From: Morchella semilibera
Lineage: Eukaryota; Ascomycota; Pezizomycetes; Pezizales; Morchellaceae
Length of the DNA stretch: 64,000 nt
Assembly (NCBI GenBank): GCA_009192285.1
Contig: WBVU01000009.1
Span: 620,001-684,000 of the forward strand
Direction of reading: 5' to 3'
Shown here: positions 1,564-61,800 of the stretch, piece by piece
Numbering within the stretch: position 1 is the first letter of the stretch
Layout of the letters: each line of letters opens with the position of its first letter
Notes under the pieces: generated by a model
What the model was told of the DNA's origin: nothing
Database searches by the model: none
Seen by the model: the letters and a program-made list of their open reading frames with translations, nothing else
Program-made: the position numbers and the translations under genes

Positions 1564-4500
1564 GGTTGGATGGTCCCTTTGTTAGTTTGTACGGTTTGAA
1601 AAAGAAGTTCAAAGGTTATGTACGGTGATATATAACCTATAGAATTTTCAAGTGAGGACCGGTGACATACTTACTATGTGTTTGATGTGTCTGGCGGCCA
1701 AGTGGGGTACTTTGGTATATATTTAGTAAGTTTGAGACTGCCCGCTACCTGTACGGTGGGTTATAGACTGCGTGGCTGTGAGACGAACGGGGAGGGCCAA
1801 ATGGAGCAGTTGGCTTCTGCTGGTTGGTGGTGTAGTAAGTAAGTTAGTGCATTTACACTCCCCGCCCAACGGTTAGTGGTCTGTGATCTATAGAGTCCTA
1901 AAGAATTATTGAATTCTACTGCGCGCGATGATTTATTGAGGTTTGAGATCCCCCTTAGTCACTGTACTACAGCAGACGCTCTCTCAGCGAAGCGCCGAAC
2001 AGCCTATATTACATCTCGGGGGGACTTTCTGGGAAATTCGACTTACCGGAGAGAGAGCTCATGCTCGGTGACAACATGTATCCTTCCTACTTTTTCCTCG
2101 CCAGAGGCACAGGAGTAGGGCTGGGATAGAGACCCTATGTAACCTAAGGATGTGTTTCAGAATCGACATGGGTAATTAGATGCTTGTCCAACTTTAAAGT
2201 GTGGAGTTTGTGTATGTATGAGTGAAGCGAAAAACGGCACCTCACTTAGTTATCAAAGGCTACTTAATAATCCCAAAGCAAGTGGTATTGTGCGACGTCG
2301 TCTATGAGGATAGAGATGCATTACGATCGATATCTTAAGAGTTGACAAGTAGGAAAGGCGTTCCGAACTTGGGTTAGCAGAGGTCTTGCGCCTCAAAGCA
2401 GATCCGGTAAAATGCTTCCCTGACACTAACCAAGACTGGGGTTTGGTGACTCTATAAAACCCATGGCATATTGCAAACAAATTTTAGAGCCACTAACTAA
2501 TATAATTCCGGCTGGGGGGAGTAACCCGCCGCTAATATCCATCTTATTCTAGAAAGGTTTACTTCACCGGTTCATATTATAGCTCCAGGAACCTCCTGTT
2601 GCCCCTCATACCATATCATGTCACGTCAGCACTGCCTATATCCAAATAGAGCAAGTAACCCATTCTAAGTCGATGCAAGTAATCATGTATAGTGGGTATA
2701 CTATAAATCTTATCGCACGGTGAGAACCCAGGCTCGGAGTAAAGACCCCCTGCGATGGATCAATGGGGAAGTGGGTTTTCTAGCTTGGTATTGGGTATGA
2801 AACTTGTGTCATCTCATCGCTTTAGACTGACAAGAGTATATAGGTGGATAGTATTTCCCTTCGATTTGGCACTGGATATATATGTTTTGCAACGCTCCAA
2901 GGTTTCGTGATCCTCTATACTGAGTGACTTTCTGTGATCCTGTGCCTGTGGTCCCGTTTCTCTCTAGTGGTAATTTGTAACTGATTCCTTATTAAATCTT
3001 CCCTGAAGCTTGTGTGTAAGGAAAGGACCAGGTACATAAATGTACATGTAGTTAAGGCTTTTTTTTAGTGTTGCACTAGTTTTGCAATAGCCCCATAGAG
3101 CGGCGGCGATTGACTGTGGGATATATAGTGGTGGGCGGGAGCTATGCTAATCATAGGATTTGAAAGGATGAAAAAGTGGGGGGGCGGCCCGGGGGGCGGA
3201 CAAAGACTTAAAAACACGCGGTCTATCAGTTTCGCATCGTCACCTAGCCCTGCTCCTACCCGCCCTTTTCTGAACTTGGCCCCACAACACCAACAGTCTA
3301 TATATGTACCGGAGTGAACTCCGATCCCCTGGCTGATATATAAGGGCAAACCCAAATGTGGCGCAACCTGAGAAATAGCTAGGGGTTAATGTATATGCAA
3401 ATTTTGTCGCCTTCTTTTTATTATGGGTATTGAGATAAATATTACTCCCCTTCCTTCTTTCCTTCTTTTCTTCGAGGTGTGGTGGGCCATGGGTGCGGCA
3501 GATGGAGCTCCTATCCAAAAGAGACCCAAATTTGACCCCAATGCCTCTGGCTATTGACTATATGCGTATGAGATGCGCCCTCCTATAAAGACTACAAGTA
3601 TTACGACATCTAGCACCCTCTTTTAGTTGACTAGCACACGACAAGGCCACTCCTCTCGCACGATTGCAATTGGAGTAGCACACCCCCCCCCCCCCCCCAG
3701 ACTGGTTTATCGGTGACTTGAGGCGCTCTGTGATCTGAGCTGATCTTCTGGATACTTGTATACGTGACTGACACTAGGGTTGAAGTTTGGTTTATCAAAA
3801 TCAACCATGGGTTGGTCAGTGCACCTGGATTACCCCATAAACCGTCGACACCCCTTCCCAAAATTCCGGCGGGTGGCTGGTACTAATAAATTCTATGGTA
3901 CTTGTTGGTGTGGCTTTCGGTCTCACATGAGGGGTGTCAGCAACGACGGTTTATTGAAAGTTTTAGAACACAGCCACGTTTTGAGACTGTGGAGAAGTAC
4001 TCTATATATGTATGTACTTACGTATACTTCATACATTGTTTGAGTACATGTAGGGGTTATACGTGGGCGCACTTTTGACCTTTAACAAGATGTGGAATAA
4101 ACCAAAGTCCTTGTCTCGCATGCAAGCTACAAGTACATGTACATGGTACATACATGTATACATGTACTCGGGGTAGGTAAAAAGTACTGGGCAATAAAGA
4201 CCAATGGGTGTGCGTACTGTACTAGACGGGAATTACTGCAAAAAAGGTCCAGAGACAAAACTTACATTGTCCGGTGCTATTTACCTGCCCCGAGTAGTCC
4301 AGGGTGTCTTTAAAAAGGCCATGCTCTTGAATGTACATTTACATGTAGAGTATCTTCCACTCTACTCTGCATACCCCTTACAGCAAATTCTTGATGGCTA
4401 CACGCAGCAGATCAAAAGGCCCATTACCTAGATCTATAGAACAGTCAGCCGGTCCTCGCAAAACCCAATCCACCCTATCTAACATGTAACTGGTCACGAA

Positions 4501-5779
4501 GGTATTTCCCAAGTTACACATCAACACACAGGTCTCGCTACTGATGTGTAGTGTATCGTTCTACGCCCTCACGCCCCGCCATTTTCGTTTTTCGAGTGCT
4601 TAAGAGTTCACATTATATTATATCTAGGGTACTAAATAGCTATTTATATCATTTACTATATATCCGAGTGATCGTTAGTGAGTACAAGGCTTAGCATTAA
4701 CACACTGTATAAGATAGTAATGTATGCAGGTTACTTATAAATAGAGTTAGCAATCTCGAATACGTGGGATCCCCTTGCACAGCCGAAAGTTGGTACTCCG
4801 CATGGATGATACGTAAATGTATGACTAAACCAATATATCAATACGTGAGAGATGCTGAATCATATGTTGAGAAGATCGGCTGTCAGCAACATCCTGCCAT
4901 GTTGGACATGCAAGTTCGATGCCTACATGTAGTTTGTCAGTCTCGCTAAGACACAGTTGGGTAATAACGCTTAATTGCAAGGAGTATGAACCACGTTTTT
5001 CGGTGCCGGGCCCGTGTAGTACATGATTACATGTAGTTTCTTGTGGCGGAGCAGGTACATACTGGTAATAGCTAATCACGTGAAAGCTAGGTATATACAC
5101 ATGTTCCCGATTTTGTTGAGGATATTGTCATTATCATGACACGGTCACTGTCATTCCCTTAAAGATCCCAATGTGTTAACATCTACACGAAAATATGTTG
5201 GAGGTATGGAACCAAATACAAGGGGTTGGTTGAAAGATAGATCGTGTAAAAGTACAAATGTATGTGGGATCGGGTGAATTCATATGAGACGTGAAACAGG
5301 GATCTCTGTACCTGGCATCAGAGTGGTACAAGGCATAGATACATGTAAGTACATGTACTTGCTCTACCTACCGTGATTAACACTCCAGATCTGTAGTGGA
5401 TACAGATGCAGGTCCGCTACCGCGGGTCTGCGGCGTAGGTATCAACAAACTTAATTGAGATGGAGGCTCTCCCTCCTCTATTGCCCTCGGTCTGTTGGTC
5501 TATCACCGGCAACTAGCTATATAGTAATCATCAATTACTGTTGGAGGTAATTTTACGCTAATAAAATAGGCTTGATAGATTACTGTATTGATAAACCCCT
5601 ATCTCAAATTAAAGCTTAAATCACCTCTGTAATTAACCACAGGGACAGGTTAGGAGGGGTGGCCCGTCATTTCGGTTGAATTGGAAAGTATCTATAAAGT
5701 ATTGCCTTCCCACTTACACACATCACCATCGGTAGAGTTGAGTAAATTCGCACTAATCAACCCACAACTCACTTTCACG
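1564..5779. other. Gene-poor spacer with TACATGTA copies and G/C runs
   Basis: I find no supportable gene in these 4.2 kb; the open frames are short and resemble nothing I know. It holds ten copies of the palindrome TACATGTA, near 3043, 4045, 4134, 4151, 4159, 4340, 4924, 5028, 5340 and 5350. Three of these lie abutting or nearly so at 4134-4166. There is a G-rich patch at 3177-3199 and a run of 16 C at 3683-3698. Confidence 0.7.
5693..5699 (+). promoter_or_regulatory. Probable TATA box of the GH105 gene
   Basis: TATAAAG lies about 80 bases before the ATG at 5780, and the sequence between is rich in C and A as in fungal 5' leaders. Placed by position only. Confidence 0.4.
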
Positions 5780-7114
5780 ATGTTTTCTACTCTCTCACTC
5801 CCCCTCGTACTTGTCTCTGCTCTCTCTGCAAACGCCCTTACCTATGGCTCCAAGCCTATTAATTATGGGTATGACGTCGAGAAAGTTAAACAACAGATGG
5901 AAGTATTGGCCACACACTCTTGGGAGTATGGCACAGCAGCAGAAGCACTTCTCGAGTTTGACAATCCAGAGCTCTCAGTGTTTGGCTCTTCCCCCTTTCC
6001 GATCCCTAGTGTTCCGGCTGCGAATGTACCGGCGCTAGCATATGCGAAACAGCACATATATCTTAACGACTCGATTCTTATACCAGCTGATGGTTTGAGC
6101 TTCCAGTTACCACAAAATCAGGATCATAGGTACTGACTGGTGCTATGTTTAGGTGCGGTGGGTGATTCGGCGTCCATGGGTGTGTTTGCGGTCCTCATTG
6201 GGCAGACAGAGCCAGCATATATGGACGGCTCCGCGCGCGAGATCAACCATCTAATCAACACCGCGCCCCGATGGCCCAATGGTGCAATCAGCCACCGGAC
6301 CGATGTCGCGGAGTTATGGTACTCCTTCAAACACCCATCTCTATGCAATAAGATATCCAATTCTAATAAACCTCCAGGGCTGATTTCATCTACATGGCTC
6401 CCCCATTTATGGCTTACTACGCCGTGGCAACTAATAACGCCACCCTTCTCAAGGAGTCGGTCCGCCAGGCCCGGCTTTATAGAGAGGTTCTTGTCCAGCC
6501 GAGTGGACTCTGGACTCATATTGTCGGCCCGCAATCCGCTGATAGTGGGGCATGGTCCACCGGGAATGGATGGGCTGCTGCTGGAATGACTAGAGTGCTA
6601 GCGACGGTGATGAAAGCACCAGTCTCAAAGAAGTGGACAGCTGAGATTCAAGAGCTGAAGAATGAGATCAAAGAGATACTAGATGCAGTGATGACCGTTG
6701 GTCTGGTACGTTATTTATTGTTAACAAGTTATCCTTCGATGTTTTAGGACAACGAGAAAGCTAATAGCAGCCACCATATAGACTGAAAATGGGCTCTTAA
6801 GAAACTATCTCACTGATGCTAGCTGGTTCGGCGAGGTTTCCGGCACCGCACTCCTCACGTCAGTAGCCTACCGTGTACACATCCTCGACAGCAAAACCTT
6901 CGGAACCAAGTATCGTGACTGGGCCGAGGCGGGACGTGCGACGATTGCAGGTTGTGTCGACGCCAATGGAATACTAGGACCCGCTATTAACCCCTTGTGG
7001 TGGGGCGATAGAAACCCGGTGTATACAGGCTCACCAGAGGGAAACTCGTTTGCAGTTCTCGTGGCCGCCGCATACAGAGATTGTGTACAGAGCGGAAAGT
7101 GCTCCAATAAATAG
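5780..7114 (+). CDS. Secreted GH105 unsaturated rhamnogalacturonyl hydrolase
   Basis: Exons 5780-6092, 6153-6318, 6378-6705 and 6782-7114 give about 379 residues. The N-terminus MFSTLSLPLVLVSALSANA is a signal peptide, so the enzyme should be secreted. GH105 enzymes (YteR type) hydrate the unsaturated uronic acid left at chain ends by pectate or rhamnogalacturonan lyases, releasing it for uptake. Family landmarks in order: GDSASMGVF, the RWPNGAISHR segment, ELWADFIYMAPPFMAYY, a GPQSADSGAWSTGNGWAAAGM core, and WFGEVSGTALLTSVAYR near the C-terminus. All intron phases agree and no break is seen. It fits functionally with the GH28 pectinase at 30 kb, though the two are not adjacent. A TACATGTA palindrome sits 41 bases past the stop. 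Confidence 0.9.
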
Positions 7115-8179
7115 ACTGGGTTAAGTAATTCCTATAATTATGAGACTTAGGCTATACATGTACTAGTTTTACTTCTAGAGGCCATTTTAGACTTTTCGTG
7201 TTTAAATAAAGACTTTCGATCCCTGATTGAGGATGCATATTCATAATCAAGGAGTTCGTGACAATGCATGCATAAACCATTCTCTCGAGCTCAAACATAA
7301 GATTACCGCTTCTGGAGACTCAAGCGCGCTGGCTGTACAGACGTATACCGGCCGGTAGCACCAAACGAGTGCAATTTCATGATCCCGCCACCGGCCAAGG
7401 CTTTGTAGAAGTTAACGGCTAACAGCAGTAGCAGCTTGGTTTCCATATCTTCTGCACTAGGGAAAATTTAGTGCATTAAGTTGTTATACTAGTTGGCTTG
7501 ACCGGAGGGACGCTGCAAAGCGGGGAGTCAACTTTCTTCAGGAATAGATATTTCAACATAAAATGCAATCCCCTCGGGAACTATGATACCTGGGTTGTCG
7601 TTTGATTAGTGTGTTGGTATAATGGGTTTTATTAGCTGAATCACGTTGGTGATAGCATGTGGAAATATAGTAAGTTGTAAAGAAACTCATAAGCTCAAAC
7701 ACTTGAAACAATAAGGGGGACAAAAGGAGCATTGCAATGTGGCACGTACGGGCAACTACTGACATGTTTAAGAAAATTAATACCAAAGAAATTCCTTCCT
7801 GGACACAGCTGGGGAAAGAGAGAAAAATAGAGGGAATATAAATGGCAATCAAGAGGTTATAGGTCATTAAAATCATGTCAGTAAGATAAATACAAAGGAT
7901 CACTAAACAAATCCATCATAAGCCCAATTTATCCTATCAGGATACTAGTACGCCAAAGCAAGGACCAAAGCAAAAACATGCCAAACGGATTGAAAGGCAG
8001 CTAGTCATTAAAGCAAGAAAGGGAAGGGGAAAAAAGAGAAAAAAAACAGAACAGGCAACAATAAGAAACCCCTCCCACCCAGGTAAAAAAGAATAACACC
8101 AGATAAAAAAAAAAAAAAAAAAAAAAAAACTCCGCCGTTATCCGTTGTAATAGTAGCCATGACCGCGAGGTCCCCAAGT
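7115..8179. other. Spacer with A-rich tract
   Basis: No gene seen. It has one TACATGTA at 7155 and a purine-rich stretch ending in a run of about 25 A at 8105-8129, which falls in the probable 3' flank of the minus-strand gene at 8180-9064. The A run reads as T on that gene's own strand, so it is not its poly(A) tail. Confidence 0.6.
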
Positions 8180-9064: not shown

Positions 9065-11141
9065 AGTGCTAAACCGGGCTATTCATTCCCCGGTGATGAC
9101 GGAAGGAGGGGAAGAAGTAGTAAAGGAGGGGAAAGAGCAGAAAGAAGAAGGAGGGAAAGGACTCGAGGAGAGGATTCGATGAGAAGGGGTCAAGATGAAC
9201 GGTTGCTCCACAAGCTCGCCAGAAAACGCTCGAGCTCAGGCAGCATAGGCTTTCCTGGTTTTTGACTTGCAGATCATTGGTTGTGTTCCGGCGTCTGGAG
9301 GGTTACTCCAAATAGCCAAGTGCACACCTCACAGCCTGAGTGGTTAACTTCAACGCATCGTGTAGATGCCTGCACATGCCTGGGTTGGGTTTTGGGAACT
9401 TTATTTTTCCTCCCGTTATTACTGTTGCGGGGGGGCTGAAGCAAGAAAGGTGTGAAATCTGAAATACATTGCGCGCATATGAGACATGGCGCACGAACGA
9501 TTGGCTCGGAACAACCTTGTTTGGTAAACCACCGAACTACTGGATCGTGGAGTGCATGGGTCTTTCCGGAAAAATCTCCACATCGTCTCCAACTTCCTCG
9601 ACGGCTATTCGTCATCTTGGTTCATAAGTGGTCACTCATTCGTTATGCCGGAAACCGGTGGTTGGCACACTCCCTTCGGGACGTGGCTACATTGTGAACA
9701 AATAGAGTCCTGGTGGCAGAACAACGTTTTTTTGTTGGCATGATAAAAACCAGCTCCTCACTTTCCTGTGCTTGCATACCTGCTCAAAGGCTTGAATCGA
9801 TCTCGTGGTTGTTCCTGCATTGATGTGCCAGCTCATACTCAAATTTCACGCGCGGTAATTTCGTGGAGGCGATGATATCAAAGACACCTTCAACAAATAA
9901 AGGTTCGTGTAGAATTAGTATCCTGGTCCTTAATGGGCGCATTATAACCTCCCCAGATCGAGAGACCTTTTCCTGCCAAACCCCAACCCCTACCAAAGCT
10001 CGAGCCAGTGGCTTGTAGGCAGCACAAATCTGCATAATCGTGTGGCGGGGCGATGCAAAACGAGTGATAAGTGGTGTTTTCTTTTTCCTTGACCTCCATG
10101 CATCACCCATGTGCCCCCCCAATATAAAATTATGACGGTAATTGTCAACCAACGACAACTACTCCCTGCCTTGTGCAAAGTAAGCTCACAAACTATCATT
10201 CTGCAGATCTTAAACCTGAAGACCAATCTCGTTCTGACCAATACTCATAACTAGCTTCAGTCTGCCAAGCTGGTAATGAGGAGTACAGCTAAGGTGGCGC
10301 CCGCGCCCTTTGGGGAGCGTGTCAAGGTTCTTGGCCGCCCAGGTCAATATTGAGAGCTCGAGTGCAGAGCCATATATCGCCGCATCAAGTCAAGATAATT
10401 AGGTGGTCGCAGGGAGAACTAAGCTGGGTACTGGGAGAAAGACTAGGGCGCGAGATGAATCTCGGCGGCTATGGAGGAGCCGTGATGGAAAGGAGAGGAA
10501 TCAGGAGTTATTAGGGTTGATGTTAAGGTTGGGTTGGAAACATAAGTTGGGGGGGGGGGCTGGGGGGTACCGGGTACGGGGGCATTCAATCAAGATGTTA
10601 GGTGTAGGGAGCCACTGCCGCACATTTTAGCAGCTAGATAGGGTTCTAGAAGATGGTCAGTACAGTACGTTACGAGACCCTTGGAAACTCAGAATTTAAA
10701 GCAACCAGGATAGAGCTGTTACCTGCCCTGCGGTTGAACCTGGCAATACCGAAGCGTAGGAGGGTGAAACAGGATAGGCGAGGTTAGAATTACATATTTG
10801 AAGAGGGTGAGAATACATGTAGAGACAGTGCACTAAGGAATTCACCGTAAATACATAAGTATTTTGAGAAAAGATGTCTTCAAGGACTAAGTACGATTAC
10901 AAAGTATGTGGTATTATGACATATTTTTGGAAATAAGAAATTAAAAATTTAATTTATAATTTGATATTTACAGAAATATCATACAGTCAGGAGCGAGAAA
11001 TTTGATAGGATTTATTCATACCGAATTCAAATTCAAACATACAAAGACCAACATCTAGCTAGGATGTATTCGGGACCTGCCCTACATCTAAATTCATCCA
11101 GGTCCAGCTTGACCCTCTATCGATATTTCATTCTCATCTAA
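9065..11141. other. Spacer, no gene recognised
   Basis: Open frames of 60-125 codons occur on both strands, but none shows a domain, codon bias or splice pattern I can support. One TACATGTA lies at 10814. A G-rich stretch lies around 10549-10568. Confidence 0.55.
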
Positions 11142-11771: not shown

Positions 11772-14561
11772 TTCGGAGTTTTGGTTGCGCTCTATCAATT
11801 CGGAAAGCGATCGACGGTGGTGAGTGCATGTTGTCGAGTGACGCAGACAAAAATCCCAAATCTGGATGCCAGGGTTAGGGTTTACAGATATCAAAACTAG
11901 CGATTGGCGAAATACGCCTTTCAATCCCCAAATAACTATTATATGGTCTTAAGCTTCTATGTTGGATTATCGGTCCTAGTATGCTAAAATTCTTATATTG
12001 GTGCGATGAGAATGAAAATATCCCTGATCGTGACTTATAATTACACTTGGAAGGAAGACTGAGATAACAATTCTGGAGGGCTATCCAAAGATCTATTCCC
12101 TAAATGGTTTAACTAACAAGCTTTGACATACACAGCCGCTCCAGAGCACCTCCAGTCATGGTAAGATGGGTGGTATAGAACCGATCAATTAATTGCTATC
12201 GGAGGCCACAGCCTCATACAAACAAATTCAGCAAGATATTTCTCGTAATATCACACATTTATAGATAGTACATACATCCACCTATATTCAAAAAGCACTC
12301 AAATACTACAGTCAGGCATCGGATTAACCAATCAACCCGGGATCGACGTTGTCCCAACAAGTAATGAAAACAACTGAGACAAAACGACTCTCCGAAACAA
12401 TTTTATACTTTCCCGCACTTTCCGCAAGGCCGGCCCGGGGGGGGGGGGCCCGGGGGGGGGGGGGGTTCTCTATGGTCCTGTCCAATCAGTAATTTAGGAG
12501 TCGTTCTCCGTAGAAACAGCCTTGAGCTCGGCCAGGACAAGTTCAAATATCCAGGATTTATTGTTAGGAGAGAATAAAAGCGAACAAAAAGAACCGGCGT
12601 AAATCGAAATAATCTAACTTGGCTCGCGATCATCCCCGTCATTAAAGAGTAATCACTTATTCTGCCTCCGTACATAAGTACGTAAAGTACTCAGGCCTCG
12701 ATGTTCACGAGTTGTTGAGGCGGATGGCAAGGAATAGTTGAACGTCCAATCAAGTACTGTACCAGGAACTCAACAGGATGATTGGCAGTTCCACGAAATT
12801 GGTTTCCGGAACGCGTTGCAGTTGCAGCCCAGTACTTACAGGGCAGAATCCATCCCCTAAAAATCAATCACTTTACTTGCATGTTTAAACGAACACTGGG
12901 ACTGTGCTTTAACGATAGGCTTTTAGTCCGAATCCCCTGACCGGTTATTAGCTATATTGCTAGTTTGAAATGACATAGAGGTGTGGGGTAGTTAGATTAA
13001 ATGTCGAGATATATACAATTGCGACTATAGCTGCAGCTACAGCCGCTGAGCCGCCAACACCAGGGCACCATACATTGGGGGTACTAGGTATGCGCACTGG
13101 CTTGTACATTCAGGCACGCTCACGTGCCAGCTAAGAAATTAAAGCAGGGTTACCACTACATGTAAGTATTATTCATGTAATCCCTTGTTAAGCTGTGTAC
13201 TTCATTTGATTATTATGATTATTAGTGCTCTGGCTGAACATACATCAATAGCTTGATCGAGCCCAAACCCGTGTCTGCCTCATGCAGTACAATACAATCC
13301 CACGCGTTAATAATCAAGAGTCAAACATAGTCCCTCAGACGTCCGTCTGTCACACCCATAATTTTTCCACATCACGATGTTATATACCAAACCCGGCCGG
13401 GCCCTACATACTTACGTACTTTATCACACAAGAGGTATCTTTATATTATCGTCACTATTAATAACCTCGGCTGTCTGTCTGACATATGCACTCTGAAGCC
13501 AGCGCCGCGCTTAATGCATAACTAAAGGATTTACCAGGTTACGCCCTGTGCTCAAAAGGCTTCTTTTCTTGCTGTCTCAGCCATCAATGTCTCCACCCCT
13601 CCTCCCTCCCGGCGTAACGGCCAGTGTCCCTATTGTTGGCTATGTTGGTATTGGTTAATAACCAACTACTGACCAAATTAGGGGGTCTTTAACGAGCCAG
13701 GCCTCTTCTCTAGGAAAAGGGATCCGTCGTTTTCTGTTGATCACGGCATTTAACTCGGTCTAGGCACCTATTCTATAACTCAGGTGTTAAGGGGACTAGA
13801 GTATATGATTAATTACATACGACGTTGATTACCGTTCAAAGTGCTGGCGCTACGTACGATACGATCGATCCGCGCGCCGTTGCGGTACAAGGGCTTCTAA
13901 CAGCAAAACAAAAAAAATACCACCACCAATAGATACAATCAATACACTCTTAACGTTATTGTATCTCCATACAGGACACCCAGGTCTAAGAAATCTCACC
14001 CGACCTAGGCTACTTTTTCTTTCTCCTCCTCACCTACTGGTAGATCCCCCTCTCTCGAAACCCCCCCCCCCCCCCCCCCGCCGAGGTAAGGGGACACACA
14101 CAGCATCCACCCTCCCACATGCAATCTAATCTACTCTCCTGTGTCTCTACATCTCCATGATCACAAGGCGCACCGCTTCTGTAATCGCCGTTCTGCACGG
14201 GACGTTATAAAATAGATAACTGAGTCAATATAAAACTACTTATAAACCGTCATCATTCTAGGCCTCCGACCCCACGACGGAGGTTTTATTTAGTTTTAGA
14301 CTTCCCGCTAGCTGCTGCAGCACATACCCGCGATATCGTACCATGGGTCAGGGAGTGGAAGATCAGTCTATCATTTATACCTGTTCCACCTACAGAGACT
14401 TTTCTTGGTCGATCAAACACCAGTTTAGCTATCAGTACCGGTAGAAACACTCCAGCAATACATTCCGTACATAACTCCCTCTACTGCAGTACAGCAAGAT
14501 CTCCGAGTCATTCTTCCATAATAGAAAAAAAGACTACGGCGCAATAGCTAGATAGCTCATA
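11772..14561. other. Spacer with long G and C runs
   Basis: No gene seen. It holds 12 G at 12437-12448 and 14 G at 12452-12465, separated by CCC. A 19-C run lies at 14061-14079, about 480 bases before the rhodopsin-domain gene. One TACATGTA lies at 13157. Confidence 0.6.
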
Positions 14562-21779: not shown

Positions 21780-23601
21780 ATCGCTGCGCGGAAAAAATCG
21801 GGTACATGTAGTTAGGACCTTGATGATTCTCTAGATCTTTTTTTATTTTGTGCCTCTAGAGGTAGACGAGATATCGGTGTGAGAAAAGATAAAATAGTTT
21901 ATGTCCAAGTCTCAAACATCTTCTATTTTGGCTACAGGGCTTTAAAAACTGAGACTCGCAAGCCTTTAGGGGGGTGGGCTTAAATAGGTGGGTCAATGAT
22001 CACCATTACAGGATATTCTTCCGACGTGGCCATAAGACAAGGAGATGGTTGAAATTGGTTTCTCCGCGGCAAGACATGAGTTGGGCAGATGTATATTGCT
22101 ACTTACAGAGTTTATTAATATATATCTCGAATTATACTATTTAGAGGATAGATCGCCCAACCTTGAACCATCTGCGACTCGAGTGTGCAATTAAGAGAAT
22201 TTATGATTGTAGATACGGCGACCTATTCTATATATAGCCCAGATCATTGAATTGAATTGCCATCGAGAGATACAAGCCACAAGAGCAGTATTCTTAAGCT
22301 AATTAATCCGCAAGGCATAGTAATAGATAGTATGAGAGGGGAATAAATATATATATATAGTAAAATTGGTTATTGGGTAGGAAAATAAGAAAATGAACTA
22401 GTATGTATGATAAAAAAAAACAAGGAAACTTGATAAAAAAGGACCCAGTGGGAAAAGGTTTGTATATTAACACAAAAGCAAGTGTCTTGACTAGACACAG
22501 CGAATCTTGAGATCTCACTATTGACCATGGGTGAGTAAATATATTGTAGGAGACTTGGTTTATTTCTTGAATACAGGATTTTTGGCATGCCTTGTAGAGC
22601 ATACAAATAATCAGACATACCGTTAAAAAACTTATGTACGTACCAAGGTCCTACAAACAAATGTGGCTGTTTCTTCCCCATGCCTCGGAATTACAAGATC
22701 AATTGCGAGTCTCCATCTTTATCGAGTGATCTCCCATGAAGCAATCTACTACGAAGATGGTACATCGTTCACCTATATTTAAGTTATCTACTTGGCGTTA
22801 GACCTATATAGAATTGAATTTAAATATTTCTTCGCCTGTAAATCGATGGATTGGAGGTCCGTAGATCTCAGTCTTAGAAACAGAAAAAATGCCAGTAATC
22901 AGAGAACACTACTTAGCTATCGCTTAACCAAGGAACGTTTGACGAGTTCTTGGCAAGAGAAAGACCTAGAAGACGGAAAGGGCTGGGGAGAGGCTGATTG
23001 GTTGGTTGATACTTCATACACGCGGCCGGGGAGAGGCCGCAATATTGCGGTGAACTCGAGAGATGATCTCGATCTGCCACGCACCCCTCCACTTTGGCTC
23101 TTTGCATCTAAACCACCTACTTTCCGATCCTTGTGCTCCTACGTTACTTCCTATCACACCCTGCACAACTCACGCCCACGGAAAAAGGGATCAGCCTGTC
23201 TTCGTATTTCGTCTCGTTAGGCTGCGCATATGTGGCATGGAGGTTGGCCTTGGCAAAGCGAGGAATGCTAACTTTGTCTATTCATTGACTGCTAAGGTTC
23301 ATGCTAGGGTTGGGTGTTATAGATTTTCTTTTTTCCCTTGGGCCCAGATCCCGGCGACTGTGTCGAAGCTATCGTATATCGTATGGGTCTGATGCACAGC
23401 ATATGCTCATTTTGCAGCATGTATACAGGAAATACATAGAAGAAACATCATTTCATTCAAGGTCGTGGAATACATATACTAAGGAAACAACAAAGAGAGT
23501 AGGATCTGCACTAGACATATCTCATCATAAAACCCGGCACATACTTATCGGCCAAAACCGGCAACACATGCATCATTAGTCCTTAACCCCCACGTCCCAA
23601 C
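21780..23601. other. Spacer, no gene recognised
   Basis: It contains TACATGTA at 21803, an (AT)n stretch near 22349, and one copy of the recurrent 18-base motif at 22722-22739. A frame of about 140 codons at 22792-23220 (+) has no recognisable domain. Confidence 0.5.
22722..22739 (+). repeat. 18-base recurrent motif, copy 1
   Basis: Reads TCGAGTGATCTCCCATGA. Related copies lie at 28419, 33753, 38411, 56125 (reverse) and 59781. Confidence 0.5.
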
Positions 23602-28436: not shown

Positions 28437-29029
28437 CCTGGTATGCGTGGTTACCTCATCCTTGTCAAATAACAAATTGCGTGATTTCCAGGAACAGTAC
28501 CTACATGTACTTAGCAGGGAGTACGTGTTAGTGGACTGATATGATGAGCATTCCTCAAAGTGTAAATATGGCTTATGTTTGTTTAGAAAAGGACAATCGA
28601 TATTATAATTTCTCACCGACCCTCGGTCACTCGTTGATTCCATGCTTACCTCCCACTTACTCTCGCACATAGGCTACTCGGGGTGCAGTCCAGATGGTAT
28701 AGCGGGAATCGTCCCGTAGACTTGTTCTGTTCTGATATATCCAGTTCCTGAAAGGAGCGCCTTAAATAGATATCTTAATCGTGACCTATATAGGTGTATT
28801 TGCATGCCAAGATACCTGGCTTACATATTAAAAAGTCTTGTTTTTGACCTCGTTGCTTGGCGGAATGCCCATGGAATTGGAGATTTTTCTCAGCCACACA
28901 GTACGAGCACTAATATATTGGAAGTATTAATTGTGCAGTGAAATGGATATTGTCAGGGTGAATTGCGGATGGAATAGATAGAGTGCTTCCGGGTTTATTC
29001 GAGCTGGTCCCTCGAGCTAATAGCAATCT

Positions 29030-29150: not shown

Positions 29151-30090
29151 GTATCAACATCGGGCTATTGCCAAGCCGATATACTACTAAACGTAAGGCG
29201 GCGTGGGAGATCGTTCTCCCCGTTCCAGCCGTGTTCGGTGCATTTTGCCCGATGTTAATTGATCATATATGAGGGGCTGGGTGTCTTCTATTCCAGTGTA
29301 GCTATACCTAAGGTGTGGTTTTGATGGGACTAGAACACAATTACTACATGTATGCTTCCGTGCATGGACCCGGATATGTCGGCGTGAGACGTATGCCCAG
29401 ACTTCCGGCCGTATACAAGGTAGTACATGTATTTACCTAAAGCTTGTCTGGGGCAATTAATTTCTAGAAGTGTTGAGATTAATATGAGACGGTAATATAA
29501 GAAGTCGAATCAAGCATTACTAGGCCTATAGGGCATACTATATACGCATCCGATACCCGAAAGCCTGTGCTCCATTCGCTTTTTAATTGTACAAAACTCC
29601 GAAAGGTTTAGAGAGTACGTAGGCCATCTAGAAGAGCCGTTTCAGTACAGGGATGCAAGATTGATGGGGAACAGCTAAGCTTTGACGTGTGTACCGAATG
29701 CATTCGCTTCCGAATTGCCGATCCTTGTAACCACAGCTCAATCTGTAACTGGCGGTAAAAACACCGATATACATGTAGTTGATCATATTTGGAAACCTTC
29801 GGGTATTTCTTACCCCATTGATCTAATAATCGACTATCTTGAACGTTGTATGCTTAGAGTAGAGATGTTTGCATCTAGTTTCAAACAACCGTTAGCCCAC
29901 GTTGGATCCTTATGGTTATTTGGATGATTAGTATTTAGAAAAAATTAGTCCTTGACCTTGCTAGCTAGTACCCACTTGCATCTCCTACTCATTTACTTAC
30001 AGTCCGTATTGTAGGAATTCTCCGTTCCCCACATTTGAAGTTCACACAAGGAATCGTTCAATTGAGACGGTTCTATACATCTCAAATCCC

Positions 30091-33750: not shown

Positions 33751-33752
33751 GG

Positions 33753-39797: not shown

Positions 39798-39942
39798 TGT
39801 GTGGTGGTATTTAAGAAAGATGTATTTAACTGATTCAGACTTGCGGGTAGTAAATACATGTATACTAGGCCTAGGTGCGGGGTTACTGATGAGTTGCGGT
39901 TGGTCGGAAAATAGATTTTCCGAGACAGCTTCCACGGCCTAC

Positions 39943-40062: not shown

Positions 40063-40251
40063 ATACAGTAGGTCTCTAAGCGGGCAGATACACAGAACCT
40101 TACCAAATGCTTTAGTATATGTATCCCACAGTGAGGTATGTGAGTTTATGTTGGGTACATGTACTACCCTCTCTCTACGGTACATGTAGTTATGAGGGCC
40201 TTCGGCCACCCCCCCCAATTCCCATTCTCGCCCTTCAAATGGGGCCTTCGG

Positions 40252-40282: not shown

Positions 40283-40603
40283 GCCTCTCCCCATTTCCCG
40301 CCAGCCAATCTAATTCAGTCCACAGGTCCTGATGTGTCGTGCTTAGTCAATACTCTATATATCACTATCAACCAATCATATTGCGGTTTTATGCCAAGCG
40401 CGCGCGCAAAAGACCACTTCTGCATGACCTATTCGCTCCAGATCTCATTAATATTAAGTGACGGCCAGTTTAGACAATGCGTGTTACCGTTACCTGAATA
40501 GCTGGTGGAAAATAAGAAGTATGTGCTACAGTACATGTAGTATCGTACATGTACGTACCTGCAACCCCGCCGACAGGTCATGTGGAAATACATGCAACTA
40601 CAA

Positions 40604-40735: not shown

Positions 40736-40744
40736 TACTCAAGT

Positions 40745-43330: not shown

Positions 43331-43489
43331 ATACCGCACATTCCATTATCTGCAGCTTACCGGTCCACGGAGCAATATGGGGGTACGTACATGGATCTAG
43401 CCGTACCGCTGAGGGGTACATGTACTTATGTACTACGTATGCACATAGTACAATTTCGGTTTACATATATCATGACTGTATCTGAAGGT

Positions 43490-43496: not shown

Positions 43497-43584
43497 TCAG
43501 AACCCCCGCCCACTGCCACTTCTTCCTCACCTTCAATTCCAATTTATATCTATATCCGTAAATTCCCCATAGCTAAAATTCAAC

Positions 43585-46386: not shown

Positions 46387-47832
46387 AAATACTTAGATTT
46401 CTCTGGTAGTAGTAGGCCGGCCTTCATGGCCACTCCCTTCCGCATTCCCCAAAGTCCTCGGCTCCCCGAAAGTTAGCATAAATCATTTGTACTGTTTACT
46501 ATTGGTTCTAATATCTGCTCCGTCCAAAAGAGTCTAAAAATATCTCCAGCGGTGAGATTTTGAAGAGGTTAGCACTTATCTCCTTCATATAAGTCATATC
46601 GGACTTTGCCTCTTCAACCCCCCCCCCCCCCTGTGGCTCGTCATTGACAACAGTACTAGCTTCCAACTCCGGCTCTATCAAGTCTAGCCCAAGGGATACT
46701 CTTTGGTAGCGGGTGGTACACGCGCACCTTGCCTTGTGATACTAGAATAATAATAATAATATCGTCCCTGGTGTTGACTCGAACGCTTGGCGGTTGTGTA
46801 GTTGCTTAGTAGTATTCCTATGCACATGTACTCAGGGTGTCGGAAAATGATGCACATTCAATGGTTTATCAACCACCAGATGGTTACATGCCACATCAGG
46901 TTATTTCCGGGTTAATATGAGCGCTTAGATTCTTATTGTGACTAGGAACTAAAAAAAAAGAGTCTGTTATTAATTATTTTCTGTGACCTTTACCACTTAT
47001 TTTTACTACCTTGCAGTGACTTCTTCCCTATAAAGCAAACCTTTAGTATCCAGACATCTCTAGATACATTCTAGGCAATAAAAAAGGGAATATATACTCG
47101 AAACTCCCACCTAGAAAGTATTTTGGGTTGAGGTAATTGGGTGTATTTAGGCGTTGTTAAGTCAAAATGTGCATCACTTTCCAACACCCTGGGTACATAC
47201 ATTACATGTATACAACTACTATAAAGATATTTTTGCACAGGCCATCCACACCAAGTCTGGTTCACAGGCGTTCATCGAGTACAACGTTTTCCGTAAGGTT
47301 ACGGAGTGCACGAGTGTATTTCGACGTACGGATTGGTTATTCCCCAGGATTCTCCAAACTCGCCCCCTCTTGGAGATTATGAGCCTGATATTGGTTATGC
47401 GAACGAGCAATGTAAACGATCGCGATCAGTCCTCCCTGGGTTTCATCAGCAGTTCTAATACAAAACATTCTAGTTAATGATTTTGGCGACTACCTGAAGA
47501 ACATCACATAGGTAGGCAGTCTTACAAGTGTGCCTTATACGTATACAGCAACACCATTGGGAGATGTGATGACGGTAATGGTAAGAGATGCTGGGCTAGG
47601 CAAAATCTGAACCTTGCAAGATTCAGGGGCGAATAGAATATGTAGCTACATGATGTAGTACTGCGGGCCACTACGGCGTGTATTTGATATGCAATAGAGC
47701 CTACCCTAGGGTACATCGATTTGTATGGTGACACGGTAATCTATCCCGGGTACGGGGATAAGAAATGATAATTCTGCATGTTTTGGGCCCAAAAAGTGAA
47801 GTTATCTCTCGCACTGGATATATACCGGTAGT

Positions 47833-48003
47833 ATCCTCCTTTCAGGATATATATCCTAAAAGGACGATATATATCCTCCTGTCAGGATATATATCCACCC
47901 GTCAGGATATATATCCTGAAAGGACGATAAATATATATATTTTGATAGGACGATATATATATATCCTGATAGGACGATATATATCCTAATAGGATGATAT
48001 ATA
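47833..48003. repeat. Tandem palindromic ATATCC repeat
   Basis: Units of the type AGGATATATATCC alternate with AGGACGATATATATCC, about eight copies with small spacers. Each unit is itself palindromic, so the tract can form many small cruciforms. Confidence 0.8.
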
Positions 48004-51165: not shown

Positions 51166-52873
51166 GCGTTATTTCGATCTTGTTTTGCTATGCATGGAAG
51201 CGGGGCATTAAGTGGGGAGTATCAATCTTGGGGATGCGCAAAGCGAGAGATTTTGGTATTCTTTTCCACGATCTTGCTATGTATTAGCGCATAGGGGTAT
51301 GGGGATATCCAAGGTTGCTTTTGGTGGAGTTTCTGTATGAGTTACTACATGTACCTAGTGTATTATTAGCTTGTGAGGTGCTGAGTATCGGTCTGGAGGT
51401 ATGTCTGAAATTTTTGGTTTTGATGAAGCTTTTGTAATGTACTTATGTAGGTTGTAAGTACCTTTCTACTATTACGTAGTGGGAATTAGCCTGCGTCCAC
51501 GTATAAGTACATGTACTTATTAAAAATTACAACGCCAGCTCAATCCTGCAGTCCCCCGATAACCCAAGCCCAGCCCAGCGTAGGTAAGACTAGTGGGAAA
51601 TGGTCATATTACATTAAACAACACAATAATATCTGCCATTGTATACATGTAAGCTTAACGGCTATGGTGTCCCCCAGAGGGGCCGAGCTAGGTCTACTCA
51701 AATCAGTTGTACAGAAGTGTCACTGGTTCAGGCCACCTCCCAGACTTGGTCGAAAGGCTGTGCGACTGGGTAAAAAAGAGGAACCCCCACTAGTGCGATC
51801 CTCTTTTTGCTACTTTGCAATATTTTTCTTTTTTGGCCCTCTCAATCCTAAAGCTACTTCTATCACTATTCCACGGGCTTGTACTTGATAAAGCTTGTTA
51901 ATACCTGAACCCGAGACCCTATGCTGTGAGAGCTCTTGAATTAGGTTATTCGAAAGGTAGAAACCCACCACAAAGGGACTATCCGATAAAGCAGCCACCC
52001 CCATAAAATAACATGGGCTAAATTATTTACAGGAATTAATGGACCATGCTGATCCAATAGATCTAAGGAAGTTGTTCTGATTTAACCACACCATTCTAGA
52101 TCTAGAAATCTATTTCCCGACAAGGTATAGAGGATGTTAGCTGGAACTAGAACGATCCTGTTAGTGTGTAAATTTGAGCCACACACAACCCTCAGAAATT
52201 AATCTGACTGAGCTGCATACATGTATCCAAGACTTGCTAGAATAGAAATACATGTAGCCTCTTTCCTCTTTTAACGGGCGTCAATTTTCGGCCCTTTTTC
52301 TTTACTTCTAGCTGTGCTTGGTTCTGGGTATATAAAGAGTAATTAATCTCACCACGCTATAATTAAGGGTACCAGATTATTTCGCCTCTGGGTGTAGCCT
52401 TGTATATAGAAAGCCCTTGTTGTAGTTATTAATAATTTATATGTATAAAGCTATTTAAATAATACTACTACGTAGTTGGTTACCTAAGTACAGCCATAGT
52501 ACGTCCGGGAACGAGCCTACCAATCAAGTCCTATATATACCAGCACTACCAATCTAATATCAACACTGCTACTGTTGCTACATGTATTATGTATTAGTGC
52601 ACAACTACATGTAATCCTAACCTACATGTAGTTATATGTTTACCTCTCCCGCGTCATATCCCATCACTCGGCCAACCACACAATCACTAGCAGCCATTCT
52701 ATTGACGATAACAGCGGCCCAATACAATCGCAAAGAAGGGTATTAGGTCCCAGATATTCTCACTACTACCATTAGCACCATCATCAACATCACCACCACC
52801 ACTATCATCACCCATCATTATCACGCCCCCCCCATCTTCACCGTCATCGTCGTCGTCAAAATATTAACCAAAG
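51166..52873. other. Spacer rich in TACATGTA
   Basis: Eight TACATGTA copies lie in 1.7 kb (51346, 51508, 51644, 52218, 52249, 52579, 52606, 52623). The last 120 bases are a CAT/CAC-rich leader before the gene at 52874. No gene seen. Confidence 0.65.
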
Positions 52874-56718: not shown

Positions 56719-58837
56719 ATGAGGTCTAATCAACAACTTCGAAACAACTACGCTCCCCCGGCACTGCACCCGCTAAGTGAGACCGACCTACCTGACCTTG
56801 CTAACTGCTGGCGCTGCAAAGATAAAATCCGCGGCCGAGCCTTCATTGCTGCTTGTCTAGAAAAACACAGGTACTGCTTTCACTGTGTTAGGCGCATTTA
56901 TACCCTCGCAACCACTCGGAATGAAAAGTGGCCTGCACGCTGCTGCAAAGTCCCATTCGTCTCCACCAACGTATTCATCCGCGTTTTTCTTAACAAGGAC
57001 GAGATAAGTTTGTACAAAAAAAAATCCATGGAACTTTCAACGTCACCCGCAAATAGAGTCTACTGCAGTAGACAGGGCTGTGCGGCGTTTCTCGGCAACC
57101 GTGAGAACCATCGTGGTCCAATCTATTGTCCTTACTGCAATGCGGCCACATGTTGGACTTGTAAGCACCCGGCACAGCGAGATCTATTCTCTCGGGAGAA
57201 TATTAAGTTGGAGGCGCACTTTCTTCAGGTGAACCCAGGGTGGAAAAGATGTATGGACTGTGGAACGATTATTGAGATAGTTACTTCAACTGGTTGCATA
57301 CATATGGCATGCGGGTGTGTAATTCTCCTTAATGCCATGGGGTTTATATATATACATTCAAAGAGCTAATATTATGGTGGTTACATAAAGATATGATCAT
57401 ACTTACTGTTATTTCTCCGGAAAAATTAAATGGACAGGCTTATCGAGAACTTGTAGATGCAAACGTCCCGACGGACGACTACACAGGCAATCACCTTATA
57501 GCCTTCCAGATCCCTACACAACGTTTAGCCCTCGGGTTCCTGAGCCGAGACCCAGTTCGAGATTCGATGTAATTTTGACTGAGGAAAACAGATTCATTCC
57601 CATCTCTACTGTTCAAACCTCAACTACCCACCCATGCTATACTTATCCTCCGGGCGTCGAAAACCCCATGGATATGTCATATCCATATCGACTTCCCTCT
57701 ACAACCGCCGAAGGTCCGGCAGACGCTGACTCCATCCTCAGAGAGCGCAAGAGATGGGAGCTCTCATCGGGTACCTACCCCGAGCATCCTACAGAAGGCG
57801 CATGTTGTCTTCCCTCCCGACTTCTAATCTCTCTAGAATGGAAGGCGAAGTCTCTCACTGCGCAGCCGGATCCAGTTCCCAACACCGCTCCTCCCCCCTC
57901 TCCTCCACCAACTCCTTTCGCTCCCAGCACTAAGAATCCTTCTATTCTGCGTCCGGAAATGAGAAGGTTAATACAACCAGGTCCCCTTAACCGGCAAACT
58001 TTCGGCCCAATTGGCACTGAAATCGTCCCAGCCCCCAGCCCCCTCAGCACATTTTATAACACTCCTGCCACAAATGTCCGAGCGGGTCCCTTCAGCCCAA
58101 TGAACACTTTCCGTACAAGTGGCCCAGTAGCTCCCTTCGGACCAATCGGCGTTCTTCGCCGTCCAAATGGTCCAGTGAGTCCCTTTGGCCCAATTGGTAC
58201 TCCCCGCTACACAAGTAGCCCAGTGAGTCCCTTTGGCCCAATTGGTACCCCCCGCTACACAAGTAGCCCAGTGAGTCCCTTCGGCCCGGTTGGCACCCCC
58301 ACCCGCGCAAGTGGCCTAGCGAGTCCCTCCGGCCCAATTGGTACTCTCCGTACAAGTGGCCTAGTAAATACTTTCGGCCCGGTTGGCACTCCCTTACGCG
58401 CAAGTGGCCAAGTGACTCCCTTCACATCCCTAGCCGGCACCCCCCGCGGCCCGACTGACACCCCGCCGGCCCTAATTGATACGCCTCTCACTTCAATTGA
58501 CAGTCCCCTCGCCCCAGTGTGTCAAGTGGCGTCCAGCCTTGGTGCCCTGAACATTCAAAACAAAAACCCGGACAATTATTTGACTGAGGATTCAACGCAG
58601 TCCAACAGCCTTTTTACGGAAGACGTCTCGCGGAACAACCATGAGACTGATCCCCCAGAGGATAACCACGAATACGATTGGTGGGGAAGTTCCTCAGCCA
58701 GTGTCCCAGACCCCTCGGAGGCTGTGACTTATCCATTGCGTGAGCCAATTGATGTGGCGGGATGGCTGAAGCAACTGCAAGAGAGAGATCGGGGGTTCCA
58801 GCTAAATACCCCCCGGAGGGGAAGGCAACAATTCTAA
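56719..58837 (+). CDS. RBR-type RING protein with FGPIGTP repeats and altered RING2
   Basis: Exons 56719-57314 and 57391-58837 join in phase to about 680 residues. RING1 lies at 30-76 (CWRC, CLEKHRYCFHC, ARCC), the IBR at 116-148 (CSRQGC, CPYC, CWTC), and RING2 from 178 (CMDC, GCIHMAC with the presumed catalytic Cys at 198). After the intron RING2 continues as GYDHTYCYFSGKIKW, then CRC. The usual FCYxCG reads YCYFSG, so one zinc-ligand cysteine is Ser. About 440 C-terminal residues are Pro/Ser-rich, with about seven imperfect repeats of SPFGPIGTPRYTS. The family transfers ubiquitin through RING2; with a ligand lost, activity is uncertain. It is a relative of the RBR gene at 25.5-27.6 kb but lacks the WW-like and extra Cys modules. 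The RING2 join depends on my intron choice. Confidence 0.75.
58120..58440 (+). repeat. In-frame tandem repeats in the RBR gene
   Basis: About seven units of 45-48 bases encode variants of GPVSPFGPIGTPRYTS. Two neighbouring units (about 58170-58270) are nearly identical at DNA level, which suggests recent slippage or unequal exchange. Confidence 0.8.
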
Positions 58838-61800
58838 ACATCTATTAATTTGGCATGCCAATTTTGGGTAAGATCTTGTGCTTTGAAGAACTAGCTTCTG
58901 CTTCCCCTCCGTGTTGCGGGGCGCTTTCTCAAACCACCGCTTGATCCTCTATGAGAATCATCAAGCATTGCTTTATTTTGTTGGCCGGAGGATTAAGCCT
59001 CTATTCCAGGGTTACCTGGTTGGCAGACCTACCCGGACCGTACGTGATATAGTGGAGTTTTGACACCACACCTTATCTAGAAGGGGCCATATTTTCCCTC
59101 TATATATTCATCAATTCAAATTTCTTGTGTTATATTAGGGTTTTTGACGGGTTATTTGCTCTTATTATGCCTTTATGTTATATCTATTCTGGGTTTCTCT
59201 CCCCTCCTTTTAAACCTATCGCTGAGATACTAACCCGAAAGTTTTTGCTGTTTCCCATCCAGATTTCAACTCTTTGTTATAGAGTGGAATATGTCCTTTT
59301 GATACCTTTCTTCTTCGTTTTTTACAAAGGGGAGAGGGTAAGAAGGCGATCTATGGATTTATAATGCTGAGCTTTGGAGATTTTTGTCAGCCCTTTATTT
59401 TTTATTCTTATTTTATTATTTTCTTGTAGATGTTTCGATATTTCGTATTCTGAGCTGCATGCTTTATTTTAGTAACTATTAGAGATATGATCTGGCTAAA
59501 GGTTTGCTAGAATTATAAAAAACCAATACCGAGAAAATCCTGACTCCACCCAAAAAAGATTCCTCTTTTTACCGACTATAACAGTAACCGACATTAGTAT
59601 AGAGACTAGTTGCATATAGTTTACAAACTTACTACCTGACCACACGAGGCAGTTGCCCTAGGTGATAGATAGTTGTCGTGAGTAGCGGTCGGTTCCCGGG
59701 GACCTTCTCGCAAAGCTACATCATGTTCACACGAATGATCTTATAGCTATAACTAAATTGATCCATGCCACTTGATCCCGTCGAGTGATCAACCATGACT
59801 TCGGTCCCCGGTCATGCATGGATATACACGCGACGTCGAAATCTTGGATACGCCTCAGCCCAACCTCCCTTAGACTCACTTGGGGGGGGGGGTAATTCCG
59901 ACGTTTTATGTGAGTACCGGCCACTAAGGCAGACTACAATGCAAATCCAGTCATAGCATACTTCCACACTGGCTCTACAGTCCTTTGAGCTGGCTATATG
60001 AAAGGCATTGATGTGACTCCAAAGATCCCCCCCCAAACCCCCTAGTATGCCACCACCAGGAGCGAAAGGAGAATTTATTGCCATGTGTGGCCTTTGACTA
60101 AGCGGTGCATCCTTGGCGCTAGCGCAGGGTACAAATTGCACATAGAGATCCAAAATTTCAAGAGCATAACCACAGGCTAGACAAGGTCACGTGCCCCCCC
60201 CCCTTCCTCCCACCGGTTATCTTTGATCGCAGTGCCTTGTAACTTGTGAGCGGAAGGCATGTCGGTTATTGCTACTCCTCCGTTGGGTGATATCACATGT
60301 GATAATGTGTTGGGCTTCTTGATCCTGTGGTATTTCTCATTTTAGCCGTATGATAGTTATGCGCAAGATCTTCCTTTCGCTATGCAGTAAAAGCTCTTTG
60401 GGGTGCATAGTGGCCTGTGCGCTTAGGAGTCCTCGGGGTTGTCCTCCTTATGGGATGCATGATACCCATACCGTGATAGACCCGATTTCCCATAGAGAGC
60501 GGGGGTCGCCGGTAATGATATTAATATAATGCCAGTGGGAAGAATAATTAGTGCGGGTTCAAGCGTAAATATTACTACTACTGAGACATGGCATCTGTGA
60601 TAGCATTGACTGAGGCTGTTAATAATAAATCCCAGAAATAGATTTGGTCGAGCCACGGCGAGCTCGTTTTGTCCACCAAACCACTTTTGTATATCTCGTA
60701 CAAGGTCTTCGCATTTTATGCTTGTCAGATCAGTGCTTATCACTACAATCTTCACTCCAAAAAGCTCAAGGCCAGGACTTCTGATAACCGAGGAGTATGA
60801 ATATAACCATTTTAGGCTGTGAAGGCGCTGTTTGCGGTGAGGTTCAATAGATGTATGTAATGTTGGGTGCGTGTCTTGGCACGATAACGCACTACATGGC
60901 GGGCTAAACATAAATCAATTGCTTGAGCTGCTTTGAATCTCGCACTATATTACACACCCATAGCCACGTCCTGTGGAGTACCTAATCACTTTCAGCCGTT
61001 CTGTAATACAGAGTACTTACGAGTGAGACATCAGATATCACTCGGGGGCTTTTGAAATTTCAAGGTTGGAGCCCAGATAAGCGGTCGGCGTTGGCCTGGG
61101 AGCATATATTCGTTACAAAGCTGGAAATAGGGTCCCGCTGTGACAATTGATAAGTCGTTAGACACATATCAACATGCTAGTGTTGTGTCGAGTTAAAGTA
61201 TGTACGAGGTCGTGGCTGCTGCAGCTACATTCTTGGCCCACAAGGCTCGTCCTGAGTAGTGTTACAGATGAGAGGCCGATTGAGAATTTTGAGAGGCGGA
61301 TGAGGCCAAAATTTCCACCCCCCCCGGCGAAGCTTCGCGATATTATTGGTTTTCATCCTTTTTTTCTTTTCCTTATGTCCGGTACAAAGCAGGTACACCC
61401 ATTGCTTCATGCTAGTTTACGGCGTATGCTAGAGTAGGACAAACGTTCATGCATCAATTTAGACTAGGGAGGGAAATTCTAGAAGCTACATGTATTTTTA
61501 GCTAGATTTAGAATCCAAAATGTGAACTAGAATTCGGACGGCCCAGCTACACTTTGACGGCTGAATGTTTTGAAGAGCACCATAACTCCGAGGCAACAGG
61601 CTGAGTAGCAGGTACTTGATGCATAAATTATTATGTACCATCTGCTCTGCCTACTGACATGTGCTCAAGGTTAAACCCGGATCAGGGGAGGTACCTACAC
61701 CATCCGCCATTCTTACTCTCGATAGGTAGATTTTTTCCCGGGCGCGGATGTTTGTCTTGCTGTGACAGGCATCTGGTATTTCAGTTGGTGGGTGATCGTC

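Follow-up and report, generated by a model that had tools for sequence, protein, structure and literature searches.

The palindromic octamer TACATGTA is far over-represented in the genome of the ascomycete Morchella semilibera, and most of its copies may be excision scars left by cut-and-paste elements of the Tc1/mariner superfamily, an origin that we favour tentatively. The starting point was a 64,000-nucleotide stretch of contig WBVU01000009.1 (assembly GCA_009192285.1, positions 620,001 to 684,000), hereafter the window. Exact matching found 34 copies of TACATGTA in the window, the first at 3043 and the last at 61487-61494, as against 1.16 expected under an order-1 Markov model or 1.39 under an order-2 model. 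This bore out the count of 34 given in a first-pass annotation of the same DNA, and the five clusters named there (4134-4166, 5340-5357, 40156-40188, 40532-40553 and 52579-52630) were all present. Among the 256 palindromic 8-mers, those nearest to TACATGTA in the window were ATATATAT (24 copies) and TATATATA (18 copies), both dinucleotide-repeat words, with every other palindrome at 6 or fewer. Under the order-2 model, the C homopolymer alone outscored TACATGTA in the window.

Over the whole genome (56.76 Mb), TACATGTA occurred 22,206 times, a count that takes in some redundant contigs, and the reversed string ATGTACAT 3,723 times. The expectation for TACATGTA, scaled from a 264-kb sample under the order-2 model, was about 1,050, giving an excess of about 20-fold in the Markov comparison that the first-pass annotation had proposed. 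The sample consisted of the window and 20 ten-kb loci and held 115 copies, with 0 to 15 per 10-kb locus. Two loci (L010 and L013) are near-duplicates of two others (L009 and L012), and several of the counts below rest on the de-duplicated sample of 107 copies, which provides 214 half-flanks. In the 264-kb sample, TACATGTA was the top octamer in excess over an order-3 model, and several of the next-ranked enriched 8-mers overlap it. When all 16 possible TA-XY-X'Y'-TA palindromes were compared in non-coding DNA, the CA-TG form stood 29-fold over expectation and the repeat word TATATATA 5.5-fold, with the remaining 14 at 0.7-2.8. A general excess of palindromes was rejected, as the CATG form alone stands out, AT repeats aside. 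The over-representation of TACATGTA is solid.

Three contig pairs (C9/C10, C12/C13 and C21/C22) look redundant and are included in the genome-wide counts. Two 10-kb comparisons, covering C9/C10 and C12/C13, gave 99.7-99.95% identity. These two pairs are uninformative on polymorphism of the motif, as their 8 motifs were shared throughout and nearly every difference was a short indel of one to a few bases. C21/C22 had shared matches at near-equal coordinates.

Coding segments in the sample were called with a home-made hidden Markov model trained on 29 open reading frames (ORFs). All 115 copies lay in the 197.5 kb outside these segments and none in the 66.5 kb called as coding, in keeping with the earlier observation that no copy falls in a modelled coding exon; because only about 0.5 copy is expected there, this indicates a lack of enrichment in coding DNA and does not prove avoidance. 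After de-duplication, DNA within 200 bp of coding segments held 5 copies in 29.3 kb (0.17/kb), and DNA farther away 102 copies in 153.1 kb (0.67/kb). For 69 gene models, the first 200 bp past coding ends carried 2 copies in 12.8 kb (0.16/kb), as against 0.6-1.0/kb in bins from 200 to 1,500 bp, and copies were concentrated neither after stops nor before starts. The first-pass annotation had pointed to two copies lying just after stop codons and had listed a 3'-end signal among its options. Both distances were right (41 bases, from 7114 to 7155, past a gene that the annotation named GH105, and 24 bases, from 21779 to 21803), and they reflect no trend, copies being scarcer in the 200 bp next to coding segments than farther away. 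A polyadenylation or termination signal, suggested by these two copies and contradicted by the scarcity past coding ends, is very improbable. Promoter enrichment was not significant, and there was no positional bias towards gene starts; in divergent as compared with convergent intergenic regions, the density of TACATGTA was only slightly different (p = 0.085 in a permutation test and 0.73 in a rank test).

A Tc1/mariner-type element would enter at a TA dinucleotide, which would be duplicated. On departure, a staggered cut would leave behind the two outermost bases at either end, CA and TG, and end-joining would then yield TA-CA-TG-TA. Each event would thus create one exact 8-mer from a TA, and the 8-mer would afterwards decay through point mutation. 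TACATGTA starts and ends with TA, as a duplicated TA target would, and its core CATG corresponds to the terminal bases of resident elements, CA...TG being present in five of the eight distinct DDE_3 elements with readable ends. The transposon lead came from a remark on a Tc1 footprint in the available part of a Phytophthora paper (PMC3520976), and from a small element of the window, here called MITE138, that shares a TA with one copy of TACATGTA (Table 1).

Profile searches gave 69 matches to the DDE_3 (Tc1-type) transposase and 96 to DDE_1 (pogo/Fot1), fragments and redundant contigs included. Among 20 DDE_3 loci, 12 had clear TA-tipped terminal inverted repeats, 6 lacked them and 2 were weak and were dropped (L059, L065). 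The 12 loci represent the 8 distinct elements, of which five start TA-CA (L050, L054, L055, L060 and L064), one is ambiguous (L048) and two start otherwise (L056 with TT, L066 with CT). The ends of L050, L054 and L055 are related, and the pattern TACANNNNNRGGWAAWAAGT for related CA ends matched the genome 239 times (115 + 124), as against 1 + 1 for the control. Two families of miniature inverted-repeat transposable elements (MITEs) were also compared. The CA-ended MITE (TACAGCGGTAGGTAATAAGT; 40 of the matched places, L067-L106) is mostly 84-117 bp long, has ends like those of Tc1-type elements, and shows a strong target preference for ATG-TA-CAT. MITE138 is about 138 bp long, has a TA target and the ends CTCGGGGCAGGTAA (CT...AG), and was scored at 40 places including the window copy, some of them on redundant contigs. 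The 40 places of the CA-ended MITE gave 74 half-flanks, a few of which (L095, L098, L100, L104 and L105, for example) were loosely matched, and 72 half-flanks under the stricter matching used to score TA four bases out.

The composition of the TACATGTA flanks was near background past about 4-5 bases, the two sides were independent, and the context was symmetric. This gives no support to a repeat-like element whose flanks are conserved, and a longer element, dispersed repeat or MITE around TACATGTA was rejected, with no homology past the 8-mer. Of the small-element footprint suggested in the first-pass annotation, the repeat-like form thus falls away, and the scar of a TA-target transposon, though unproven, fits best. 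Extension to longer palindromes did not exceed chance (35 of 115 copies, as against 32.5 expected from flank composition), while the noted preference for a following GTT was real but modest (24/214 half-flanks). The outer base at -1 was C at a frequency of 0.36, A at 0.29, G at 0.24 and T at 0.11; A reached 0.40 at -2 and 0.58 at -3, and T 0.52 at -4. TA at -4/-3 was found in 78/214 half-flanks (36%), and in 58/154 for solitary copies, as against 279/2,354 (11.9%) for the other TANNNNTA words together and 11.4% before any non-coding TA; the backgrounds, three in all, gave 11 to 12%. MITE target sites had TA at the same distance in 15/44 cases (34%) for MITE138 and 20/72 (28%) for the CA-ended MITE. 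At the targets of both MITEs and at TACATGTA alike, the frequency of A at -3 was 0.57-0.59 (0.32 before any TA) and T was avoided at -1. Set beside CA-ended MITE targets, the flanks of TACATGTA have the TA at -4/-3, the prevalence of A at -3 and the scarcity of T at -1 in common, and differ in the favoured bases at -1 and -2.

One-mismatch words of TACATGTA numbered 169 in the 264-kb sample, as against 93 expected. In de-duplicated non-coding DNA, transitions accounted for 78 (30 expected) and transversions for 73 (55 expected); the near-miss excess being mostly transitions, the pattern is that given by decay of ready-made units, although a binding protein with some affinity for the variants could produce a similar one. 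Genome-wide, the three variants TACBTGTA (7,032 places) and the two variants TYCATGTA (4,731 places) were near background, and the transition variant TGCATGTA occurred 5,179 times. The half-sites TACA and TGTA were joined without a spacer in 115 cases and found 3 to 17 times at each spacer of 1-12. The six one-mismatch variants in excess had the TA context in 42/214 half-flanks, where the null is 11.9% and a decay mixture would give an estimated 23% or so.

When the motif was masked, TACATA/TATGTA, which would be a one-sided scar of the same ends, was the top 6-mer by z-score (245, as against 114 under the order-2 and 136 under the order-3 model), and its TA context was raised (95/502 half-flanks). 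TACGTA (46 vs 31) was enriched, and so were the unrelated words TAGCTA (81 vs 42) and TAATTA (83 vs 47). TAAGTA/TACTTA, the one-sided scar expected of CT...AG elements, had the TA context in 48/220 half-flanks, with TAGCTA and TATATA similarly raised without such a source.

Pairs of TACATGTA at gaps of 0-30 bp numbered 2,666 genome-wide, as against 129 for the control and about 270-400 by chance; the chance number and the decay predictions are simple arithmetic estimates. Spacing statistics were taken from the first 100 pairs, of which 19 had a 10-bp spacing, and the 100 pairs were condensed by hand to 77 places for the comparison with MITEs. On contig C1, pairs and MITEs lay within 2 kb of each other in 6 of 12 cases, as against 1.3 at random. 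This closeness favours excision scars, as do the TA four bases out at the targets of both MITEs and the prominence of TACATA. Among the 116 MITE half-flanks, 28 end in ATG and 7 of these 28 in TACATG. MITE insertion into TACATGTA needs no special link, because 7/28 matches the share of TACATGTA among non-coding ATG-TA sites (214/816, about a quarter). A target taste for ATG-TA could partly account for the closeness of pairs and MITEs.

Several observations weigh against excision scars as the origin of most copies. The TA context is not unique to TACATGTA, being found in 41/140 half-flanks of TATATATA and 33/104 of TACATACA besides the two hexamers already named. The closeness of pairs to MITEs was weaker at 1 kb (3/12, p 0.03) and at 5 kb (7/12, p 0.01), and for MITE138 alone it was not significant (1/3). 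The CA-ended MITE wants G at -1 (0.88 of 74 half-flanks), as against 0.24 at TACATGTA, and the two differ at -2 as well, with T at 0.61 for the MITE and A at 0.40 for the motif. TACTAGTA, the full scar expected of the CT...AG element MITE138, occurred only 7 times (2.9 expected), and the three-base scars TACAGTA/TACTGTA were barely enriched (35 vs 25). TGCATGCA stood 2.6-fold over its control (2,147 vs 815), an estimated ten times or so what independent decay would predict. In the sequence compared, a search with 136 copies gave 38 spanning non-self BLAST hits, none of which was judged informative, and no homologous pair had a bare TA where the motif stands. In the sole paralogous case (L017), siblings differ by substitution and not by a 6-bp gap. 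The 10-bp pair spacing is equally expected of binding sites with the same flank preference. In the available part of PMC3520976, taCATGta is named as a footprint that Tc1 rarely leaves in C. elegans, and the authors do not expect their own motif to be one.

The base at -1 also bears on the source of the putative scars. Given the G preference of the CA-ended MITE, such scars must come mainly from some other family, and this MITE is unsupported as the main origin of TACATGTA. The sequence shows the count and exactness of the 8-mer, its confinement to non-coding DNA in the sample, the target context in common with resident TA-target MITEs, the CA...TG ends, the excess of TACATA and the transition-rich near-misses; from these we infer excision as the origin of the copies, with an older or further CA-ended family as the main source.

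The strongest alternative, and one of the options of the first-pass annotation, is that TACATGTA is bound by a homodimeric protein, either a transcription factor or a chromatin architectural protein, that would recognise an 8-bp core with weak flanks TAAC...GTTA under selection between genes. The strict core and the independent, symmetric flanks that fade outward would suit such a site, as would a centre position that tolerates more change than the outer positions, the homotypic clustering of the 2,666 pairs, the preferred 10-bp spacing among the first 100 pairs and the enrichment of TGCATGCA. The spacing leaves scars and binding sites undecided, as it could reflect either two scars in TANNTA or two sites that like TA four bases out. 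There is no clear promoter association, and TACATGTA is scarce in the 200 bp next to coding segments; some 22,000 selected sites would be a heavy demand, and the TA context in common with MITE targets would be a coincidence. Irx-type homeodomains have alanine at position 50. The only KN (TALE) homeodomain match in the genome reads WFINARRR after splicing (spliced reading QVSNWFINARRR, with an intron in the gene) and has isoleucine at 50, so that an Irx-type TALE homeodomain as the binder is unsupported. The five PF00046 homeodomain matches correspond to four distinct domains, two of which read WFQNR. The same 8-mer is an abundant expression-correlated promoter motif of Phytophthora (motif-1 in the accessible part of PMC3520976, M93 in that of PMC3597505), for which, in the accessible text, an Irx-type homeodomain was suggested as a candidate protein. 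On balance, a protein site is possible but doubtful.

A sequence-specific mutational or repair bias that makes TACATGTA without function is a further alternative, in the manner proposed for some highly iterated palindromes of cyanobacteria; the available portion of PMC4390886 argues that an excess of this kind could arise as a side effect of mismatch repair. The neighbourhood rich in related words (ATGTAC, TACATA, GTAGTA), the transition-rich near-misses and the absence of gene association are consistent with such a bias. It should, however, act in coding DNA, where none of the 115 copies and no excess was found, and a word made by point mutation would have more one-mismatch neighbours than the few observed. 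We consider this explanation quite unlikely.

The copies in the window and the places of MITE138 are collected in Table 1. Genes of the window encode LCCL and GH28 domains. Several other repeats were noticed. The non-palindromic word ATCACTCG/CGAGTGAT (4665-4672 in the window, and sample-wide) is about 10-fold enriched in non-coding DNA (46 vs 4.5), and possibly represents the ends of another element. At 41553-41799 of the window lies a 247-bp inverted repeat with 34 perfect bases per end (TAGACCTCTTCACGGGG...), possibly another TA-target MITE. A minisatellite at 32060-32299, detected as 14 overlapping 76-nt copies, is built of roughly 12-bp units (CTGCTTGATTCG and its variants), and 48-bp repeats at 58071-58422 lie within a 420-aa ORF without a Pfam match that encodes a repetitive protein. 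Repeats of 20 bp, ATATATATCCT...AGGATATATAT, with nested palindromes, occur at 47832-48003 of the window and at 7682-7846 of L005; those in the window belong to a 1-kb sequence 81% identical with L005.

Table 1 Exact copies of TACATGTA in the window and places of MITE138
Feature	Position	Strand	Basis or remark
TACATGTA copy 1	3043..3050	.	exact match
TACATGTA copy 2	4045..4052	.	exact match
TACATGTA copy 3	4134..4141	.	exact match
TACATGTA copy 4	4151..4158	.	exact match
TACATGTA copy 5	4159..4166	.	last TA doubles as left target TA of MITE138 copy
MITE138 copy, 132 bp, TA target	4165..4296	.	ends TA-CTCGGGG...CCCCGAG-TA
TACATGTA copy 6	4340..4347	.	exact match
TACATGTA copy 7	4924..4931	.	exact match
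TACATGTA copy 8	5028..5035	.	exact match
TACATGTA copy 9	5340..5347	.	10-bp spaced pair with copy 10
TACATGTA copy 10	5350..5357	.	10-bp spaced pair with copy 9
TACATGTA copy 11	7155..7162	.	41 bases past stop codon ending 7114
TACATGTA copy 12	10814..10821	.	exact match
TACATGTA copy 13	13157..13164	.	exact match
TACATGTA copy 14	21803..21810	.	24 bases past stop (21779) of LCCL-domain ORF
TACATGTA copy 15	28502..28509	.	exact match
TACATGTA copy 16	29345..29352	.	exact match
TACATGTA copy 17	29424..29431	.	exact match
TACATGTA copy 18	29770..29777	.	exact match
TACATGTA copy 19	39855..39862	.	exact match
TACATGTA copy 20	40156..40163	.	exact match
TACATGTA copy 21	40181..40188	.	exact match
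TACATGTA copy 22	40532..40539	.	exact match
TACATGTA copy 23	40546..40553	.	exact match
TACATGTA copy 24	43417..43424	.	exact match
TACATGTA copy 25	47203..47210	.	exact match
TACATGTA copy 26	51346..51353	.	exact match
TACATGTA copy 27	51508..51515	.	exact match
TACATGTA copy 28	51644..51651	.	exact match
TACATGTA copy 29	52218..52225	.	exact match
TACATGTA copy 30	52249..52256	.	exact match
TACATGTA copy 31	52579..52586	.	exact match
TACATGTA copy 32	52606..52613	.	exact match
TACATGTA copy 33	52623..52630	.	exact match
TACATGTA copy 34	61487..61494	.	exact match
MITE138, further copies	L019 9110-9248; L021-L040	no strand	sequence match

A literature search gave no title or abstract on TACATGTA in a fungus among the matches listed. 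The footprint of Tc1 in C. elegans, taCATGta, as given in the available part of PMC3520976, has the same eight letters and the same arrangement of a TA duplication around CA/TG, and the Morchella genome, like Tc1/mariner systems, carries resident CA-ended TA-target elements. Unlike in C. elegans, where that source calls the footprint rare, the putative scar has 22,206 copies here and is known from sequence alone. Motif-1/M93 of Phytophthora is the same palindrome, with thousands of copies upstream of genes, and is an expression-correlated promoter element in the portions of those papers available, whereas in the fungal genome studied here there is no clear promoter enrichment. HIP1 of cyanobacteria (GCGATCGC) is likewise an exact 8-bp palindrome far above expectation with overlapping enriched 8-mers; unlike HIP1, TACATGTA occurs in a eukaryote and, in the sample, only in non-coding DNA.

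Taken at its widest, the scar origin would make the 22,206 copies a record of about twenty thousand Tc1-type departures that altered the word composition of intergenic DNA, with the Phytophthora motif made by the same process; this wider claim is unlikely. If it held, two unrelated lineages would each carry a regulatory-looking word that is really the scar of a transposon. If the copies are binding sites, a single fungal-type genome would hold some 22,000 exact sites for one further protein. If they are scars, the exact 8-mers would be a countable and datable history of excision, and motif finders would take them for regulatory sites.

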